Position numbers and translations under genes: made by a program | Notes under the pieces: model-generated | The model's input: only the letters and a program-made list of their open reading frames with translations | The model's database searches: none | What the model was told of the DNA's origin: nothing | IMG/VR virus record: IMGVR_UViG_3300017757_000156 | Coordinates: 1 to 24,058 of that record | Direction: 5' to 3' (one strand) | DNA: 24,058 nucleotides | From: a virus | In this document: in pieces, positions 2,946 to 22,668 of the stretch | How positions within the stretch are numbered: position 1 is the stretch's first letter | How the letters are laid out: each line of letters starts with the position of its first letter

Positions 2946-2978
2946 ATTCTATACAGCAATTATATGAGGAATTCAAAC

Positions 2979-4391
2979 ATGCGTTCGTTTTCAGAAGTTA
3001 TCCGTGAGGAAACTGATAACAAGAAACCCTACCGCCTAGTGGTGATAGCAGAAAGACGCATGGTGAAAAAGTCTAAGAAGAACTCAGATAAACCAGTTGT
3101 AAAAAAACCAAGTTCAACATCAAGTAAACTCTACAGTCTTGCAAAGGAAGCGGGTTGTGATGTTTACAGTGTTAGAGTTAATGGTGCATACATCGAGAGA
3201 GCAGACGATGGTGTAATCACAATTCACAACTCAGATGATGAGAAAGGATTTCATTTAGATGGTGACACAATCATAATGATTCGTGGAGCTGTTACTTCAA
3301 AAGATTCTTATCTAGATTTAATCAGTCAAATAGAACGATACGGTTTCCCAGTGGTAAACTCTAGGGAGTGTATCGAAGTATGTGCAGATAAGTTTAGAAC
3401 TTATCTAAGACTTCAAGAGATTGGTATGAACCAACCTCGAACAGTATTAATTCCAAACGAAGAACCCGAGACAGTCGACATGGCTGCAAAGAGATTAGAC
3501 GATGAGTTCCCTATGGTGCTTAAAACTCTACAGGGTGCAAAGGGTGTTGGAGTTCTATTGGTGGAGACTGAGAGATCACTACAATCAACGGTGAGTCTTG
3601 TATACAAGATTGACCCAACTTGTGATATCCTATTACAAGAATACATCGACATGGAATATGATGTTCGTGTCATGATAAACAACAGAAGAGTTATCGGTGC
3701 AATGAAGAGGAAAAAAATCATTGATGACTTTCGATCAAATATATCTCAAGGTGCAGAAGCCGAAGAGATAGAACTTACAGAACTAGAGAAAGAAACATGT
3801 TTGATAGCTGCAAAAGCTGTCAACGGTCAGTGGGTAGGTGTTGACTTTATTCCAGCAGAGGATAGAGAAGAGGATGCACCTTACATTCTAGAGGTAAATC
3901 ATTCGCCAGGAACTCAAGGTATCAGTGATGCATTGGGTGAAGAGGTATGTGAAACAATTATAGACGATTACTTTGACAGAGATATATGGAGAAAGAAGGC
4001 AACTGAATGTGGCGTTCTAGAGACCATAGAGGTCGATGGAGAGACGATGACAGCAAAGCTGGACACTGGGAACAGTGCAAAGGCTTGTGCCTTACACGCC
4101 GACTCCTACGAGGTCAAAGGAAAGGTTGTTCACTTTGAAAGGAATGGTAAAAAATATAAGAAACCTTTACTTAGAATGTTAACTTTAATTAAACCCGCAG
4201 AAGAAAGACCAGTAGTCAAGTGTGAATTAAACTTCTTAAATACTATATATGAACAGGAAGTTAGTTTAGATCAGAGAGGGAATATCCCGTTTCTGGCGAA
4301 TAGAGATTTTATGAATAGAGCTAACCTGATGATAAATCCATCAAGGAAGTTCTTATTGACGAATAAACATGATGACACAGAAGACACCTAA
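2979..4391 (+). CDS. RimK-like ATP-grasp ligase fused to RimB-type aspartic protease domain
   Basis: The protein has 470 residues. Residues about 100-330 form an ATP-grasp ligase of the RimK type (MVLKTLQGAKGVGV, LLQEYIDMEYDVRVMI, and the metal site ILEVNHSPG). RimK adds glutamates to the C-terminus of ribosomal protein S6. From about 345 to the end lies a second domain of the 'ATP-dependent zinc protease'/RimB retropepsin-like family, with catalytic-type AKLDTGNSA (D362-T-G), ALHA, a RPVVKCEL strand and an NRDFMNRANLMINPSRKFLL end. In bacteria these are usually separate neighbouring genes. An in-frame ATG at 2964 exists, but the GAGGA at 2966-2970 sits 8 bases before 2979, so I chose the later start. 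The target could be a ribosomal protein or a virion protein. The last 23 bases overlap the next gene. Confidence 0.85.
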   Translation: MRSFSEVIREETDNKKPYRLVVIAERRMVKKSKKNSDKPVVKKPSSTSSKLYSLAKEAGCDVYSVRVNGAYIERADDGVITIHNSDDEKGFHLDGDTIIMIRGAVTSKDSYLDLISQIERYGFPVVNSRECIEVCADKFRTYLRLQEIGMNQPRTVLIPNEEPETVDMAAKRLDDEFPMVLKTLQGAKGVGVLLVETERSLQSTVSLVYKIDPTCDILLQEYIDMEYDVRVMINNRRVIGAMKRKKIIDDFRSNISQGAEAEEIELTELEKETCLIAAKAVNGQWVGVDFIPAEDREEDAPYILEVNHSPGTQGISDALGEEVCETIIDDYFDRDIWRKKATECGVLETIEVDGETMTAKLDTGNSAKACALHADSYEVKGKVVHFERNGKKYKKPLLRMLTLIKPAEERPVVKCELNFLNTIYEQEVSLDQRGNIPFLANRDFMNRANLMINPSRKFLLTNKHDDTEDT

Positions 4392-7913: not shown

Positions 7914-8283
7914 GTCCGTTATTCGAGAACACAATCAAGACACATTAAGAATCGATCTACCATGGGACATGGTAAACAAAGTAGGATTCCGTTGGTACGA
8001 TGAACTACGAGTCATTCGAGACGAGTATAAACTTCTTTTATCAGTCCTACCTTTACACAAGCCAGAGTTATACGAACACATAACACCAGTTAGATTCGTT
8101 AAGAAAGGTGGATGGGAAAACTCTAAGAATATATTCAGAGAAGTTGACAATGCTTACACTCTAATAGAAAAGGATTTTATCCCACAATTCTCAGAGGGTG
8201 ATGAAGTAGAGTTTAACTATATTCAAGAAACGGAGTCAGAGGAAAGACATGTCGAAGTCAAACATCCCAATTGTAGCAGTTGA
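7858..8283 (+). CDS. unknown 141-residue protein overlapping radical SAM gene
   Basis: The frame overlaps the acidic coiled-coil gene by 56 bases and the radical SAM gene by 35 bases. The start is uncertain: a GTG at 7843 and ATGs at 7852, 7858, 7864 and 7885 are all in frame. I favour 7858 because GAGG at 7847-7850 is 7 bases upstream. The protein is soluble, with a strand-rich centre (TLRIDLPWDMVNKVGFRWYD, LLLSVLPLHKP) and an acidic end (FSEGDEVEFNYIQETESEE). I do not recognise it. The tight overlap with the radical SAM gene suggests co-translation and perhaps a shared pathway. Confidence 0.6.
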   Translation: MTMRPRIVPMTETVDTSSKSVIREHNQDTLRIDLPWDMVNKVGFRWYDELRVIRDEYKLLLSVLPLHKPELYEHITPVRFVKKGGWENSKNIFREVDNAYTLIEKDFIPQFSEGDEVEFNYIQETESEERHVEVKHPNCSS

Positions 8284-9178
8284 CCAATACGACTTCCTAG
8301 ATCACCGTAGGCAACAAGAGAAGAAGCATTGGAATAAGAAAGGTAATGATTTAAATGAACTTGATTCAATCCTCACCGTTGAAATTAATACTACTGAGTT
8401 GTGTAATCGTACATGCGTCTTTTGTCCGAGGCATGACCCAAGAGTATTTCCCAATAGGCAATTGCACCTTACAATTAAAGGTGCATCGACCATCGCAGAA
8501 GAACTAGCTGACAATCAATATCAGGGAAAGATTTCTTTCTCAGGTTTCGGAGAGAACTTACTCAACCCAAACTTTGTAGACATCGTAAGGGAATTCAGAT
8601 TCTATCTACCACAAGCAACAATAGAATGTAACACTAACGGTGATAAGTTAGATGCAGTCTATGTAACTAATTTATTCAAAGCGGGGTTAGACTTACTCTA
8701 TATAAACTTATATGATGGAGTCGAACAGATAGATCATTTTGATTCCATCATGCAGAGTGCAATGATACCACAAGCAAAATACAAGTATCGTATGCATTGG
8801 GGAGACTTTGAGAAACACGGATTAATATTAAACAATCGATCAGGTGTGATTGATTGGGTAGGAGTAGAGGAGAGTGATGTGGAATCGCTACAAGGGAAAC
8901 CATGTCACTATCCGTTCTACAAAATGTTCGTTGACTGGAATGGTGATGTACTATTCTGTTCAAACGATTGGGGGAGAGAACATGTTGTCGGTAACTTATT
9001 GCAACAGTCGTTGCATGAAGTATGGTTCTCTAAACCTATGAATAAGATACGGCGACGATTAATGAGGGGTGACCGTTCTAAGTCACCATGTAATAAATGT
9101 AGTGTCGATGGTTCACTGTTTGGTAAACCATCATTTGAATTAATTAAGGATTACTATGAGAGCCCTAATAACAGGTAA
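8249..9178 (+). CDS. radical SAM enzyme with SPASM/twitch-like C-terminus
   Basis: This 309-residue protein has the radical SAM cluster motif C52-x3-C56-x2-C59 (LCNRTCVFCPR), which binds a [4Fe-4S] cluster and splits S-adenosylmethionine. A glycine-rich SAM-binding strand follows (SFSGFGENLLNP, about 97-107). A C-terminal set of four cysteines (C219, C237, C281, C284), with WNGDVLFCSND and CNKC, would hold one auxiliary [4Fe-4S] cluster, as in SPASM/twitch enzymes that modify peptides or sugars. The ribosome-binding site AGAGGA lies just upstream of the ATG. The gene overlaps an unknown gene upstream and an SDR-fold gene downstream, so the three likely act together. The substrate is unknown. 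Confidence 0.88.
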   Translation: MSKSNIPIVAVDQYDFLDHRRQQEKKHWNKKGNDLNELDSILTVEINTTELCNRTCVFCPRHDPRVFPNRQLHLTIKGASTIAEELADNQYQGKISFSGFGENLLNPNFVDIVREFRFYLPQATIECNTNGDKLDAVYVTNLFKAGLDLLYINLYDGVEQIDHFDSIMQSAMIPQAKYKYRMHWGDFEKHGLILNNRSGVIDWVGVEESDVESLQGKPCHYPFYKMFVDWNGDVLFCSNDWGREHVVGNLLQQSLHEVWFSKPMNKIRRRLMRGDRSKSPCNKCSVDGSLFGKPSFELIKDYYESPNNR

Positions 9179-17901: not shown

Positions 17902-17999
17902 AAGAACATAAGAAGACACCTTCACACGGACTTACTCAAGTCCATAAAGACCGAACAAAATATAATCGTAAGAAATTTGATATCGACTTAGAATCCTAA
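17811..17999 (+). CDS. small conserved phage protein (MSKGxxRR...IFGK)
   Basis: The 62-residue product begins [20 protein letters not shown] and continues [15 protein letters not shown]. The MSKG-x-RPx...W-x-IFGK pattern recurs in small basic phage proteins of unknown function. A GTG at 17796 could extend it by five residues, but GGGA 7 bases before 17811 favours the ATG. Its last 12 bases overlap the end of the tape-measure gene on the other strand. Confidence 0.65.
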   Translation: MSKGSKRRPETGTQYQDNWERIFGKPEPKIKEHKKTPSHGLTQVHKDRTKYNRKKFDIDLES

Positions 18000-20288
18000 G
18001 TCATCGTAGTCATTACCAGCACTTGCAGCTGCTTTTCTATTAATTGCTTGTGGGTCTTCCATTCTAGAATACCCTGAGACATTAGTTTGTGAAACATTTT
18101 GGAAGACATTACTCTTAGGGTCTGTATTTCCATACATCTTGTATTCTTCCACTTGAGCTTCTTGTCTTTGTTTCTGTAATTCAAATCTACCCTTTTCAAG
18201 TTCCGATGAAGCCATGTCTTGACCTGCTGTGGTCGTGTCTTGCATTCCACTTAACTCAGTTCTGGCGACATCCTCACTACGGTAGATATCCTCGTCTGCA
18301 TAAGCACCACGGTCAGAGAATTGAGTAAGACCTCTTTGTTTTGCAAGTTCAAGAGTATCGAGTAGACCCATTTTTGCAAACTCACCACCCTCAGCCATGA
18401 GAGATTTTGCAGCGTCAATTTCTGTAGTATTGAATCCCATTGTGATTGCAACTTCTTCATCAGAGATTTCTTTTGCAGGCACATAGTCTTCTCTTCCTTT
18501 AAGACTACCTTGCATTGCACCAACTTCATTTGAGAGTTCATTAGCTTCACCTTGGAGTCTTTCTGTAGAAGTATATGCATATGCATCACCACCAACCATG
18601 TTACCTTCTTTATCACGAAGGATACCAAGGTCAGCTTGTTCTTGCATGGTTTCATACTTTTCTTCGTTTGCAAAGGCCTGTGCCTTCATTTGTGCTTCTC
18701 TTTCGACTAATGCATCTCTTTCACCAGCCTGCATGTCCATGAGGAATTGTCGTTTTGCATCACCTTCTAGAATAACACCATTATGTCTAATCGTAGAGTT
18801 CTCCATGTCTCTTTCGATTTGTGCATCTAGATTTTCTCTCTTCTTCTCAATCCTTTTTTGTTCAGCATCAGCAGCTTCTGAATCTGCTTGCTTCTCAAGG
18901 AAAATATATTCATTACGAGCATCGAGTGCATCTTGTTTACCTTTCAGTTCTTCCTGTTTTGCTTTCCTCTCGTCAAGAAGTGCCTGAGTATCCATCTCAT
19001 CAAATTGTGCTTGTTGATCTAGTTTCTCAAAGTGTAGCTTTTGTCTCTTTTGAATCATCCTCATTTTTTGCATCTGAGATGCGTTTTGGAATTCTTCATC
19101 TCCACGAAGTTCTTGCATAGCCATTTGAGTTGCTTTTTCTTCATTCTCTTTCTTCTTAGCTTTTCTTTTCTTAATACCTTCGAGTTCTTTTTCTTCCTCA
19201 TCGGAAGTAAGACCTAAGAATGATTTGATCTTTAATATCTTTTCTCGAATGAAGTCAGATATGTTTTGCCAGATTTTACTAAAGAACCCAGTAATGTTAC
19301 CAACTATATCTGATACCTTCTGTTTCATTGCAGTAAATTTTGCAAAGATGTAGTCTTTGTTCTCTTGGAATTTCCTATAGATAAACATCCCTGCCATAAC
19401 TATGGCTGCAACACCTAAACCTATTAAGAGTGCAATACCAATTATTGGGGCTGCAGCTGCAATCATACCCGCTGCAGCAACTGCCATTGATATACCTGAT
19501 GCAATCAGTCCACCAATAAACAATAGTGCTTGGAATGCCATTCCTATAGATGCAACAACAAGTTGTGCAGTTATTCTAAGGAATGCAACTGATATGTTTA
19601 AAAGTCCTCTAAGAATAAATGTAGTTGCTGATGCAAGGAATTGTAATGCAGCTTTACCTAAGAAGATACCTTGTTGTAATAGATAACCACTTAGTTTTTT
19701 AAGACCACCACCTAAGGCAGTCATACCTTTCATAAAGAGTTCTTTACCTTTACCTAGTAGATCGATCTCTTTACCAAAGAATCCTGATACCTTCTTAACT
19801 GCATCATTCAATAAAGTGAAAGGTGCAGTTGCAATTGTCCAACCAGCTTTAATCTTATCGGTTGCATCTTTAACAACCTTGTTTAGATCAAACCCAGTTA
19901 ATTCGTTTAGTGCATCACCTATGTTTTTAAATGATTTACTAAACTGTATATCAGGAATATTTTCACCGATTTTACCCCATAGTTTATCGCCGTCTTTTAA
20001 TGCAGACATGGATAAACCGTTTGCAAAATCATTCCATGCAGTAAGACCTCCAGCCATCATCTTGTCTTGGAACTTACCTAAACCTTTATCAAGTAACTTT
20101 CCTCTTACACGGATATTCTTATCCGTTGAGTCTAATGCACCATCTAGTTTCTTTGCAGATTCAGACATAGAACTACCAAACTCACCTGCGATTTTGGCTG
20201 TCTCTTGCTTGAAACCTTCAAATTCCTTTGCGGTCTCTCCTAAAGATTTTTTAAGTTTATCAACTACTGGTTGAAGGGTATCGGCCAT
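17988..20288 (-). CDS. tail tape-measure protein (gp29-like)
   Basis: The 766-residue product is the largest protein here. Residues 1-60 are a charged helix, residues about 200-305 are a long hydrophobic stretch with alanine- and glycine-rich segments (AAAGMIAAAAPIIGIALLIG), and about 340-560 is a charged coiled coil. The rest is a low-complexity C-terminal part. The mix of helical coil with a central membrane-active region is the hallmark of tape measures, which set tail length and may help DNA cross the host membrane. T4 gp29 has 590 residues. It follows the hub and tube-fold genes in the same strand. Its end overlaps the opposite gene by 12 bases, with no terminator visible between. Confidence 0.8.
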   Translation of the reverse strand: MADTLQPVVDKLKKSLGETAKEFEGFKQETAKIAGEFGSSMSESAKKLDGALDSTDKNIRVRGKLLDKGLGKFQDKMMAGGLTAWNDFANGLSMSALKDGDKLWGKIGENIPDIQFSKSFKNIGDALNELTGFDLNKVVKDATDKIKAGWTIATAPFTLLNDAVKKVSGFFGKEIDLLGKGKELFMKGMTALGGGLKKLSGYLLQQGIFLGKAALQFLASATTFILRGLLNISVAFLRITAQLVVASIGMAFQALLFIGGLIASGISMAVAAAGMIAAAAPIIGIALLIGLGVAAIVMAGMFIYRKFQENKDYIFAKFTAMKQKVSDIVGNITGFFSKIWQNISDFIREKILKIKSFLGLTSDEEEKELEGIKKRKAKKKENEEKATQMAMQELRGDEEFQNASQMQKMRMIQKRQKLHFEKLDQQAQFDEMDTQALLDERKAKQEELKGKQDALDARNEYIFLEKQADSEAADAEQKRIEKKRENLDAQIERDMENSTIRHNGVILEGDAKRQFLMDMQAGERDALVEREAQMKAQAFANEEKYETMQEQADLGILRDKEGNMVGGDAYAYTSTERLQGEANELSNEVGAMQGSLKGREDYVPAKEISDEEVAITMGFNTTEIDAAKSLMAEGGEFAKMGLLDTLELAKQRGLTQFSDRGAYADEDIYRSEDVARTELSGMQDTTTAGQDMASSELEKGRFELQKQRQEAQVEEYKMYGNTDPKSNVFQNVSQTNVSGYSRMEDPQAINRKAAASAGNDYDDLGF

Positions 20289-20294
20289 TTAATA

Positions 20295-20489
20295 TTACTC
20301 AGTTAAAAGTTGGGCTTCTACTTTGTCGATCTCTTCTTGCCAAAGTTTTACAGCTTTGTCATAAGATTCCTTTGCAGACTCGTATTGAAAATCTTCCAGT
20401 TCGTCCTTGTTAGGTTCTACTGGAGGATTGTCTTTGAGTGCAACGAGGTGATCTGCATCAACATGATCGTCTCTAATTTCTTCTGCCAT
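20295..20489 (-). CDS. small acidic protein between membrane protein and tape measure
   Basis: The 64-residue product is acidic and helical (MAEEIRDDHVDADHLVALKD; FQYESAKESYDKAVKLWQEE). A TAGGAG site lies just before the ATG. No family is recognised. The position directly before the tape measure is where tail assembly chaperones often lie, so a chaperone-like or virion role is a reasonable guess. Confidence 0.6.
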   Translation of the reverse strand: MAEEIRDDHVDADHLVALKDNPPVEPNKDELEDFQYESAKESYDKAVKLWQEEIDKVEAQLLTE

Positions 20490-20498
20490 TTGTTACTC

Positions 20499-20876
20499 CT
20501 ATTTTTCGTTGTTTGTTGAATGTTCTTTTGCAGCGGAATTGACATATAGTCCAAACCAAGCTGCTCCAGCACCAACTAGAATTGATATCAATCCTGATTG
20601 TTCCATGGATGGTTCAGGTAAATCTAAGAACCACATTACTACCCAATAAATTAAGAATATGTAAACACTTAAAAATGCTCTTGGCCATATTCTCCATGCA
20701 TCCACTGCTCTCGCAAGGTGAATCCATTTTTGCCATGGGTTAACTGTATCATTCGCTTTAAGATCACGAATCTCATCCTTAAGAGCACCATTCTCTTGAA
20801 TCATCTCCATGAACTTGGATAAGTCCATTTCGACTTCGTTTCGAGACATGTCTCCACTGAATCTTTCGTCTGCCAT
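20499..20876 (-). CDS. two-helix membrane protein, possible holin
   Basis: The 125-residue product has an acidic N-terminal coil (about 15-42), then KWIHLARAVDAWRIWPRAFL and two hydrophobic segments: SVYIFLIYWVVMWFL (about 70-84) and GLISILVGAGAAWFGLYVNS (about 96-115). The GAGAAWFGLYVNSA end resembles a motif I recall in holin-like phage proteins. Helix topology and size fit a holin, but location in the baseplate block also allows a structural membrane role. AGGAGA precedes the ATG. Confidence 0.55.
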   Translation of the reverse strand: MADERFSGDMSRNEVEMDLSKFMEMIQENGALKDEIRDLKANDTVNPWQKWIHLARAVDAWRIWPRAFLSVYIFLIYWVVMWFLDLPEPSMEQSGLISILVGAGAAWFGLYVNSAAKEHSTNNEK

Positions 20877-20906: not shown

Positions 20907-21110
20907 TTATCGTCTATTCTTGCTTTGATTAGCTCTTTGACGCTCCCGTTCTTTTTCTTCCTCTAAATGTTGAAGTAATAATTTAATGTAGATTTCCCTT
21001 TCCCATGGCATCATATTATCTAATTCCGTTAAGGAATAATTATGATGTTGCATTAACTGAAAGTTTGTTGTGAGATAGTTTAATAAACTATCATGAGAAA
21101 GGGCTATTAA
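20907..21110 (-). CDS. 51: gp51-like baseplate hub frame, reached by -1 frameshift
   Basis: In the -1 frame relative to gp26, the sequence stays open for 67 residues after the T8 tract, ending with TAA at 20907-20909. It reads LIALSHDSLLNYLTTNF, QLMQHHNYSLTELDNMMPWE, REIYIKLLLQHLEEEKERER, a pattern that matches gp51-type hub assembly proteins of marine T4-like phages as I recall them (HHxYSLxELxxMxPWEREIY). The frame has no start codon before it: a TAA lies upstream of the T tract in this frame and the first ATG is only at the QHH region. The conserved LSHDSLLNYL part would then be lost, so a fused gp26-51 product of 300 residues is the likely second product. Confidence 0.65.
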   Translation of the reverse strand, partial: LIALSHDSLLNYLTTNFQLMQHHNYSLTELDNMMPWEREIYIKLLLQHLEEEKERERQRANQSKNRR

Positions 21111-21116
21111 AAAAAA
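21074..21116 (-). promoter_or_regulatory. programmed -1 frameshift site with stem-loop
   Basis: On the minus strand the end of gp26 reads GGT TTT TTT TAA. The T-TTT-TTT heptamer (within T8 at 21109-21116 on the plus strand as A8) fits the X-XXY-YYZ slippage rule and lies directly before the stop. Seventeen bases on, a perfect 8-bp stem with a 3-base loop (GATAGTTT, AAT or ATT, AAACTATC, 21074-21092) may stall the ribosome. The tract could also slip during transcription. Confidence 0.6.
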
Positions 21117-21808
21117 CCCTGTATACCAGTAATCTTCTTACTGATTTCTTTCCCACATGTTCCACACTCAGTGTCTACATCTTTTTCAAGTCGCGGTATT
21201 GAATTGAAAAATTCTGCAAGGTCTTCTAATTGTTGAACAGATAAGTTGTCTACAAACTCCTCTAGTTCTGCAGTAGGTGAATCATTCACTGAATAAATCT
21301 CCGTACTATCAAAAATATTAACCATGCATAGTTTTAACATCTCAATAGAAGAGGTAGCTTCATCCATCCCTTGTAACTGTTCTACAATAGCAACAGTTGG
21401 ATATTTTAACTCCACTCCAATTTCATCATTTATCATAATCTTGTTATTGGGGGTATCACCCACAACTCCAACATTATCTAAATCTATTGTACATTCCCCA
21501 TGACCATCACAGTCAGGATTATGACATGTTAAATTGACCGTTGTTGTTTCACCTACAGATTTAACTCTTATCTTTAGGAATAAGTATTCCATATCGATAG
21601 TAGATAACAACTTTGCTTTGATCTTATTAAAAGTACATGCTTCAATAAGGTCTTGCACAGCCCTAAACATTGCTTTTTCGTTCTCTTCTTGTTGAGCAAG
21701 CATTAAAACTTTTTGCTCTTTAACTAGAAAAGGACGAAATTCAATTTCTTTTCCGTCACTAGGAAGTACACATGTGTACTTCGGTGCCGATTGCTTTGGT
21801 AAAGCCAT
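21107..21808 (-). CDS. 26: gp26-like baseplate hub assembly protein
   Basis: The 233-residue product matches the T4 gp26 (208 residues) baseplate family: LPSDGKEIEFRPFLVKEQKV near 15-34, IDMEYLFLKIRVKSVGE at 71-87 and a cysteine-rich part (C95, C100, C106 in TCHNPDCDGHGEC, and C215/C218 in CGTCGK) that may bind zinc. Gp26 acts in assembling the central hub of the baseplate. A GAGGAT site lies before the ATG, partly inside a small hairpin. The stop follows a T8 tract and a gp51-like frame continues beyond it. Confidence 0.8.
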   Translation of the reverse strand: MALPKQSAPKYTCVLPSDGKEIEFRPFLVKEQKVLMLAQQEENEKAMFRAVQDLIEACTFNKIKAKLLSTIDMEYLFLKIRVKSVGETTTVNLTCHNPDCDGHGECTIDLDNVGVVGDTPNNKIMINDEIGVELKYPTVAIVEQLQGMDEATSSIEMLKLCMVNIFDSTEIYSVNDSPTAELEEFVDNLSVQQLEDLAEFFNSIPRLEKDVDTECGTCGKEISKKITGIQGFF

Positions 21809-21831: not shown

Positions 21832-22668
21832 TTAACCACCACCTCTTCTTTCATTGGTTATATATTTCGAATTGACTCCTAGGTCTCTCGAAATGTTAGA
21901 ACCTCTAGTGATTGCAGTATCAAAACTTCCAAGTTTTCTACCTAGGTCACCAGCCTTTTTATTAAATCTTCCTGCTACCTTGAGTCCTTCAAGGATTGCA
22001 TCAAAAACTCTTCTACCTTTATTTAGACCACTCAATTCGAAGTTTCCTTGTTGAGGTTGGTTAAATGTTCCAACATCACCCATAGGTTGATACTCCGAAG
22101 ACCAATGTCTATAATTTAAAGTAAATCCAAATTCTAAAATCTGATCTGTACTGTCCATACTCAACTCTTGAGCATCTAAAGAAGATGGATAACATTCATG
22201 CAATGTGTATATCATTGCAGATGTGCCGTCTTTTCTTAATACATGTATACGAACTGAACACGGTTGTGCATAGTCACTATAAAAACTGAATACTTGTCCC
22301 TCGATTGCACCACCTTCATTTTGTAGTGCAGTCCTTGTTGATACATCTGCCGAGTGAACCATTCTCAACCATTCTTCTATAATCATTCTATCCATGAAGT
22401 TTGCATCACAGATAAAACTAAAATCTACAGACTCACCATAATCGACAGTCCCGTCAGGCATATATCTATGACGATAATGTTGAGCTGTTCCTACGGACTT
22501 GCCTGGCAATGTTGCAGAGGTGCATAAGATACTAAGGTTCTCTCTTACATTAACTGCTGAAAAAGCAGGTGGTAATGTTAAGAACTCTACAACAAACTTA
22601 TTTGGTTGTAAGGGTTGACCTATTTGAGACTTGAGTAAGTCTATTCCTTCTTTATGTGATTCTGCCAT
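21832..22668 (-). CDS. tail-tube-fold baseplate protein (gp54/gp48-like)
   Basis: The 278-residue product has the tail-tube plan: NKFVVEFLTLPPAF at the start, LSILCTSATLPGKSVGT, then GTVDYGESVDFSFICDANF and MIIEEWLRMVHS. Further on are VRIHVLRKDGTSAMIYTLHE and SSLDAQELSMDSTDQILEFG. These match the T4 gp54 run of strand, W-helix and ELSYDGDNQITTFDVTF-like segment, with which gp54 starts tail-tube growth on the baseplate. A low-complexity glycine- and asparagine-rich end follows. Gp48 or another tube-related protein is the alternative. It starts on the stop of the upstream gene (TAATG) and lies before gp26. Confidence 0.72.
   Translation of the reverse strand: MAESHKEGIDLLKSQIGQPLQPNKFVVEFLTLPPAFSAVNVRENLSILCTSATLPGKSVGTAQHYRHRYMPDGTVDYGESVDFSFICDANFMDRMIIEEWLRMVHSADVSTRTALQNEGGAIEGQVFSFYSDYAQPCSVRIHVLRKDGTSAMIYTLHECYPSSLDAQELSMDSTDQILEFGFTLNYRHWSSEYQPMGDVGTFNQPQQGNFELSGLNKGRRVFDAILEGLKVAGRFNKKAGDLGRKLGSFDTAITRGSNISRDLGVNSKYITNERRGGG

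Follow-up and report, generated by a model that had tools for sequence, protein, structure and literature searches.

What is made at a gp26-family gene whose last codons run through a tract of eight T residues directly into a stop codon, when a second open frame, seemingly lacking a start of its own, lies beyond that stop in the −1 register? The question arose from a locus of an uncultured virus represented by an IMG/VR record, of which 24,058 bases (hereafter, the window) were analyzed. As we argue below from sequence comparisons, this T4-like phage of the ocean very probably derives two forms of a tail-building chaperone, one long and one short, from this locus through a slip of the ribosome back by one base on the T run, an arrangement shared by hundreds of related phages. 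The features on which the argument turns are as follows.

21107..21808, minus strand: gp26-family gene (TAC-N, the predicted short form), 233 aa, with the C-terminus ...GIQGFF; phrog_150, 2.1e-58; PF12322, 1.9e-55
21110..21116, minus strand: slippery heptamer T_TTT_TTT, read directly, within the T8 tract 21109-21116
21107..21109, minus strand: gp26 stop codon TAA, abutting the slip site on its 3′ side
20907..21110, minus strand: ORF2, in the −1 frame, 67 codons (21110..20910) and a stop (20909-20907); phrog_634, 8.1e-27
21138..21140, minus strand: TAA in the −1 frame 5′ of the slip site, read directly

An earlier note on this DNA had described the end of gp26 as GGT TTT TTT TAA in a T8 tract, followed by a −1 frame that is open for 67 residues, is preceded by a TAA and has no start before its conserved part, and direct reading bore out each of these points. 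The heptamer stands in the phase required for tandem −1 slippage, with the gp26 stop immediately 3′ of it. Because of the TAA at 21140-21138, a start for ORF2 further upstream is impossible, and the frame itself holds no ATG, GTG, or TTG before an ATG at residue 20. The inferred product of gp26 matches PF12322 with 188 bits (cut-off 24.5) over residues 9-233, that is, it is homologous over its whole length to the T4 gp26 family, and its AlphaFold2 model has a mean pLDDT of 94. Searched against protein families, as the note had suggested, the 67-residue frame matched phrog_634 (“baseplate hub assembly catalyst”) at profile positions 58-120 of 121; its model consists of three helices with a mean pLDDT of 85. 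One gp26-like place was found within the 24-kb fragment of the genome, and no separate full-length gp51 gene was found within it.

The note had also called for a check that the T tract and the frame relation are conserved. Relatives were gathered by searching IMG/VR with gp26 and ORF2 as queries, together with annotated phages. At every one of 255 scorable loci, the ORF2 homologue was offset from gp26 by −1, and an in-frame T_TTT_TTN was present at all 208 non-redundant loci, nearly always two or three codons 5′ of the gp26 stop. As a control for bias we considered 164 loci chosen by gp26 similarity alone: heptamer and −1 ORF2 were both present in 162 of the 162 whose contig extends past gp26, the contigs of the remaining two (L054 and L257) ending about 40 bases or less from the gene. 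Elsewhere in gp26, T_TTT_TTN occurred at 13 of 18,918 codon positions (0.07% per codon). Moreover, the encoded residues vary (S, N, D, and rarely G, A, or R before; F or L in second place), whereas the nucleotides are constant as T TTT TTN. At 50% identity there are 35 lineages, 34 of which were tested; given the residues and each lineage's own codon usage, T.TTT would turn up in every one of the 34 with a probability of about 10^-16, a figure that treats the lineages as independent, which is true only in part. The arrangement of a slip site followed by a −1 ORF2 is far beyond chance, and coincidence is excluded as its source.

Scans of IMG/VR with the gp26 sequences of KVP40, Cr30, and T4 as queries returned few relatives. 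Heptamer and −1 ORF2 were also present in members of the Straboviridae (KVP40 and EniLVp02), the Pootjesviridae (phiM9 and OLIVR5), Otagovirus (Astolliot), and Menderavirus (Moby), and in Caulobacter phage Cr30, Pseudoalteromonas phage XG4, and Desulfovibrio phage 7757. The canonical heptamer was absent in Maynard (Ackermannviridae) and in Vibrio phage K452 (L174:4720-4900 and L176:4700-4910), in both of which an ORF2-like −1 frame with an MPWH motif follows gp26 without T_TTT_TTN. In Mosig (L163:5000-5030) and in L096, frame 0 continues for about 30 nt beyond the slip site, giving a short form with a longer tail than elsewhere.

T4 itself served as counterpart and control. Its gene 51, for a protein of 249 aa, is encoded on the strand opposite to gene 26. 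In a single-domain alignment that crosses the junction, a profile of virtual gp26–ORF2 fusions scored 51 bits with T4 gp51 (model positions 23-279, gp51 residues 15-244), as against 19 bits for a profile of gp26 and 21 bits for one of ORF2 taken separately, and hhalign agreed with the collinearity. Independently, in the PHROGs, a T4-type gp51 matches phrog_150 over positions 13-280 of 282 and also matches phrog_634. By this end-to-end match across the junction, T4 gp51 corresponds, as one covalent chain, to the product predicted from the frameshift, and its architecture of a gp26-like N-terminal part and an ORF2-like C-terminal part is shared by that product as a virtual fusion. The name “gp51-like,” which the note had given to ORF2, is thus apt in that ORF2 is homologous to the C-terminus of gp51, but incomplete in that T4 gp51 has a gp26-like N-terminal domain as well. 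Finally, T_TTT_TTN was absent from the end of gp26 in T4, JS98, Ac42, Abraxas, JK32, kaaroe, and F48, all of which have a separate gp51; the end of T4 gp26 keeps two phenylalanines, coded in GAG TTC TTT.

It has been reported that T4 gp51 is needed for assembly and is not present in the particle (PMC3004832), and that the gp51 of cyanophages and marine vibriophages is missing the first ~200 residues, cyanophage gp51 having only some 20% of its usual length and the short form being the only one in cultured cyanophages (Sullivan et al. 2010, PMC3037559). The “short gp51” of that study is the same ORF2 as the one described here. Sullivan et al. read it as a shortened separate gene, whereas we read it as the tail of a −1 frameshift product, a reading that would explain where the ~200 N-terminal residues missing from cyanophage gp51 come from.

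Could ORF2 nevertheless be a separate small gene, a short gp51 with its own start, entered at the internal ATG or, alternatively, by ribosomes that terminate at the gp26 stop and start again there? Public annotations do list it separately, often from an internal ATG (as in Mosig, S-RSM4, and Melnitz), an ATG overlaps the gp26 stop in KVP40, Cr30, Moby, phiM9, XG4, and EniLVp02, and a possible start (ATG, GTG, or TTG) lies near the junction in 15 of 82 lineages. Such a start is lacking near the junction, however, in the other 67 of the 82 lineages, the window among them, and the protein sequence ahead of the internal ATG is under constraint. Over ORF2 as a whole, dN/dS in the −1 frame was 0.02-0.20 (ten pairs; for the window, approximately 0.12 against L003 and 0.08 against L008, both near relatives), with a mean of 6-7 stops in the other two frames over the same DNA. 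Codons 1-18 beyond the slip, all 5′ of the internal ATG, gave a dN/dS of 0.11 (83 pairs) and include the invariant residues L4, H6, and N16, so that ribosomes must already be translating ORF2 when they reach that ATG. Furthermore, the same residues are fused to a gp26-like domain in T4 gp51, and the heptamer is retained even where an ATG occurs. The note had named a start for the second frame in homologues as the observation that would tell against a frameshift; starts were indeed found, in the six phages with the overlapping ATG, but all six keep T_TTT_TTN and most lineages are without a start. We therefore consider a separate gene very unlikely. For the window in particular, an ORF2 start as the main route was rejected, there being no ATG, GTG, or TTG ahead of the conserved part, which lies 5′ of the internal ATG. 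In the six phages, the overlapping ATG means that a free ORF2 product might be made by reinitiation in addition to the fusion. Slip site and overlapping ATG were located at L168:4810-4825, L169:4693-4708, L170:4696-4711, L171:4684-4699, L177, and L178:4678-4693.

A fusion of gp26 and ORF2 could in principle also come about by slippage of RNA polymerase, rather than the ribosome, on the T tract. Runs of at least eight T residues can slip in transcription, and a T8 run is present in the window and in 27 of the 82 lineages. In 49 of the 82, however, the tract is no longer than T6, too short for efficient polymerase slippage, so that slippage of the ribosome accounts better for the lineages as a whole; moreover, the run is held in the phase suited to tandem tRNA slippage. 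Polymerase slippage is in our view very improbable as the basis of the arrangement, although it could contribute in the window, with its T8 run, and the same protein would result. As to a homopolymer error in sequencing or assembly, or the remnant of a decayed gene, homopolymer runs are prone to insertions and deletions, but identical or homologous junctions recur in independent contigs (L001, L002, and more than 200 others) and in finished genomes of cultured phages, and the −1 frame is under strong purifying selection. The replicate genomes and the dN/dS values together rule out error and decay, to which we attach next to no probability.

Programmed −1 frameshifting at the end of gp26 is thus the reading that we retain, and what its products would do is suggested by the genes on either side (all, like gp26, on the minus strand).

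21832..22668, minus strand: tail-tube-like gene, just 5′ of gp26; phrog_45 (tail tube), 4.3e-30
20499..20876, minus strand: gene for a small protein that has hydrophobic segments, 3′ of ORF2 and 5′ of the tape-measure-like gene; phrog_10198 (unknown function), 1.6e-21
20295..20489, minus strand: 64-aa ORF without a family match
17988..20288, minus strand: tape-measure-like protein of 766 aa, downstream; phrog_1272 (tape measure), 5e-4, a weak match

The order tail tube, gp26, ORF2, two small ORFs, and tape-measure-like gene is that of lambda V-G/GT-H, and Cr30 has an annotated tape measure gene in the same place. When the gp26 model was compared with the PDB by Foldseek, HK97 gp13, a tail assembly chaperone (2OB9), had the highest probability among the 50 matches listed (0.44), a weak match with E = 1.0; a sequence search of solved structures gave no match. 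Homology and position make a chaperone role for the gp26 and ORF2 products likely.

We hold with high confidence, then, that two paired tail assembly chaperones are encoded here, TAC-N (gp26) and TAC-NC (300 aa), the latter made by −1 frameshifting. The analysis shows the sequence features, the homologies, the selection on ORF2, the gene order, and the constancy of the slip site, whereas slippage itself, its rate, and the chaperone role are inferred. Most ribosomes would end at the gp26 TAA and yield the short form, TAC-N, of 233 aa, with a role like that of lambda gpG. A minority, with both tRNA-Phe on T_TTT_TTT, would shift back one base and read through ORF2. The resulting long form, TAC-NC, of 300 aa, would have a gpGT-like role, its last 67 residues forming a helical domain whose homologue is the C-terminal part of T4 gp51. 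If lambda is a guide, a mixture of both forms would coat the tape measure protein and recruit tail-tube subunits. The note's proposal of a programmed −1 frameshift producing a gp26–gp51-like fusion, in parallel with G/GT, came through every sequence-level test: it agrees with the conserved slip site and frame relation, selection on the early codons, collinearity with gp51, the lack of a slip site where T4-type phages have a full-length gp51, and a location flanked by the tail tube and tape measure genes. Weighing on the other side are the ATG that overlaps the gp26 stop in the six phages named above, which are among the more distant cultured ones, the −1 frames of Maynard and K452 without a canonical heptamer, the merely suggestive 2OB9 match, and, in the window, the weak SD-like element and the long hairpin spacing described below.

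Two elements might stimulate the shift. One is a hairpin that the note had pointed out.

21074..21092, minus strand: 8-bp A/U-rich hairpin GATAGTTT-ATT-AAACTATC, stem 21092-21085 / 21081-21074, −6.2 kcal/mol

The hairpin is exact as described, and it begins 17 nt past the heptamer, a spacing longer than usual; it is not clearly conserved among relatives. Across lineages, RNA 3′ of the slip site exceeded its synonymous controls slightly in stability (mean z −0.84, SE 0.15), but pairing occurred at no fixed place and the hairpin of the window is not common to all relatives. We rejected it as a conserved stimulator, and it remains a candidate that may help frameshifting in the window. The other element is a match to the anti-SD sequence approximately 7-9 nt 5′ of the heptamer, with a mean of about −6 kcal/mol over 82 lineages against a background mean of −0.2 (−6.1 against −1.2 kcal/mol when the background is taken as the best of seven). 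This SD-like element is present in 89% of lineages and weak in the window (−2.8 kcal/mol). Synonymous controls gave −4.9 against the observed −6.1 kcal/mol, 60 of the 82 lineages being better than their control. The element appears to be largely set by conserved residues, mainly Glu-Gly, and was set aside as a stimulator.

A broader reading, which we put forward only tentatively and think rather unlikely as a whole, would have three interchangeable routes to the long chaperone in T4-like phages, with the free C-domain peptide as a third product having a role of its own and with the SD-like element as a stimulator. The routes would be frameshifting only (most marine lineages and the window), frameshifting plus an overlapping ATG (KVP40, Cr30, Moby, phiM9, XG4, and EniLVp02), and duplication without a slip site (T4).

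How does the locus compare with systems already described? With T4 it shares a gp26 homologous over the whole length and, in the virtual −1 fusion, collinearity with gp51; T4, however, lacks a slip site and keeps the two genes apart, one on each strand, whereas the window has one locus with a slip site for both forms. Like lambda gpG/gpGT, the window would derive a short and a long form from a single locus by −1 slippage, between the tail tube and tape measure genes. The lambda slip site is G_GGA_AAG, in contrast to T_TTT_TTN here, and the likeness set out here is one of organization. A TAC locus has also been described in the Vandenendeviridae and Andersonviridae (Pseudomonas phage Adele), with a conserved stop-free −1 frame and an invariant GTTTTT ending TAC-N (PMC12846349); it lies upstream of the tape measure gene, as in the window, but in different phage families, and the likeness is by description.

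The note had known of no description for this phage group. That statement does not stand, at least by the accounts of later papers: Vladimirov, Gautam and Davidson (2022; Virology 566:9-15) are cited as having identified the tail assembly chaperone genes of T4-like phages (PMC10885494, PMC12846349). The Adele paper credits them with poly-T −1 signals in the TAC-N genes of T4-like phages (PMC12846349), and PRFect cites them for “some T4-like phages” in which frameshifting is replaced by two genes, a short one and a long, fused one (PMC10885494). We infer from these citing papers that gp26 and gp51 are the genes that were named. On the strength of the credit given there, the phenomenon is prior art rather than a new kind, and, the basic idea having been published, the gain here is one of scope and detail. 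As far as could be checked, the uncultured virus is a new member, and the broad survey and the distribution of overlapping starts are additional detail.

In most of the marine T4-like genomes examined, the second half of the chaperone is either omitted or annotated as a “gp51” gene of its own, with a start that is open to doubt. The frameshift reading would supply a rule for annotation: look for T_TTT_TTN at the end of gp26 and continue in the −1 frame. It would also provide, in one phage superfamily, a clear switch between a protein pair made by frameshifting and one made by gene duplication.

We also note several other genes in the window, all on the plus strand. A Nol-like carbamoyltransferase (442-2267) is split into two ORFs, an N-terminal one (442-1635) and a C-terminal one (1632-2267; PF16861, 1.9e-58), which overlap by four bases (ATGA); phrog_1601 spans both as one protein. 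It is followed by an Fe-S cluster biosynthesis protein of the IscA/SufA-like kind (2276-2587; PF01521) and by a protein with a RimK-like ATP-grasp domain (2964-4391) whose C-terminal part resembles a putative ATP-dependent zinc protease family (PF05618, below the cut-off). Further along, at 8249-9178, lies a gene for a radical SAM protein with a SPASM domain.
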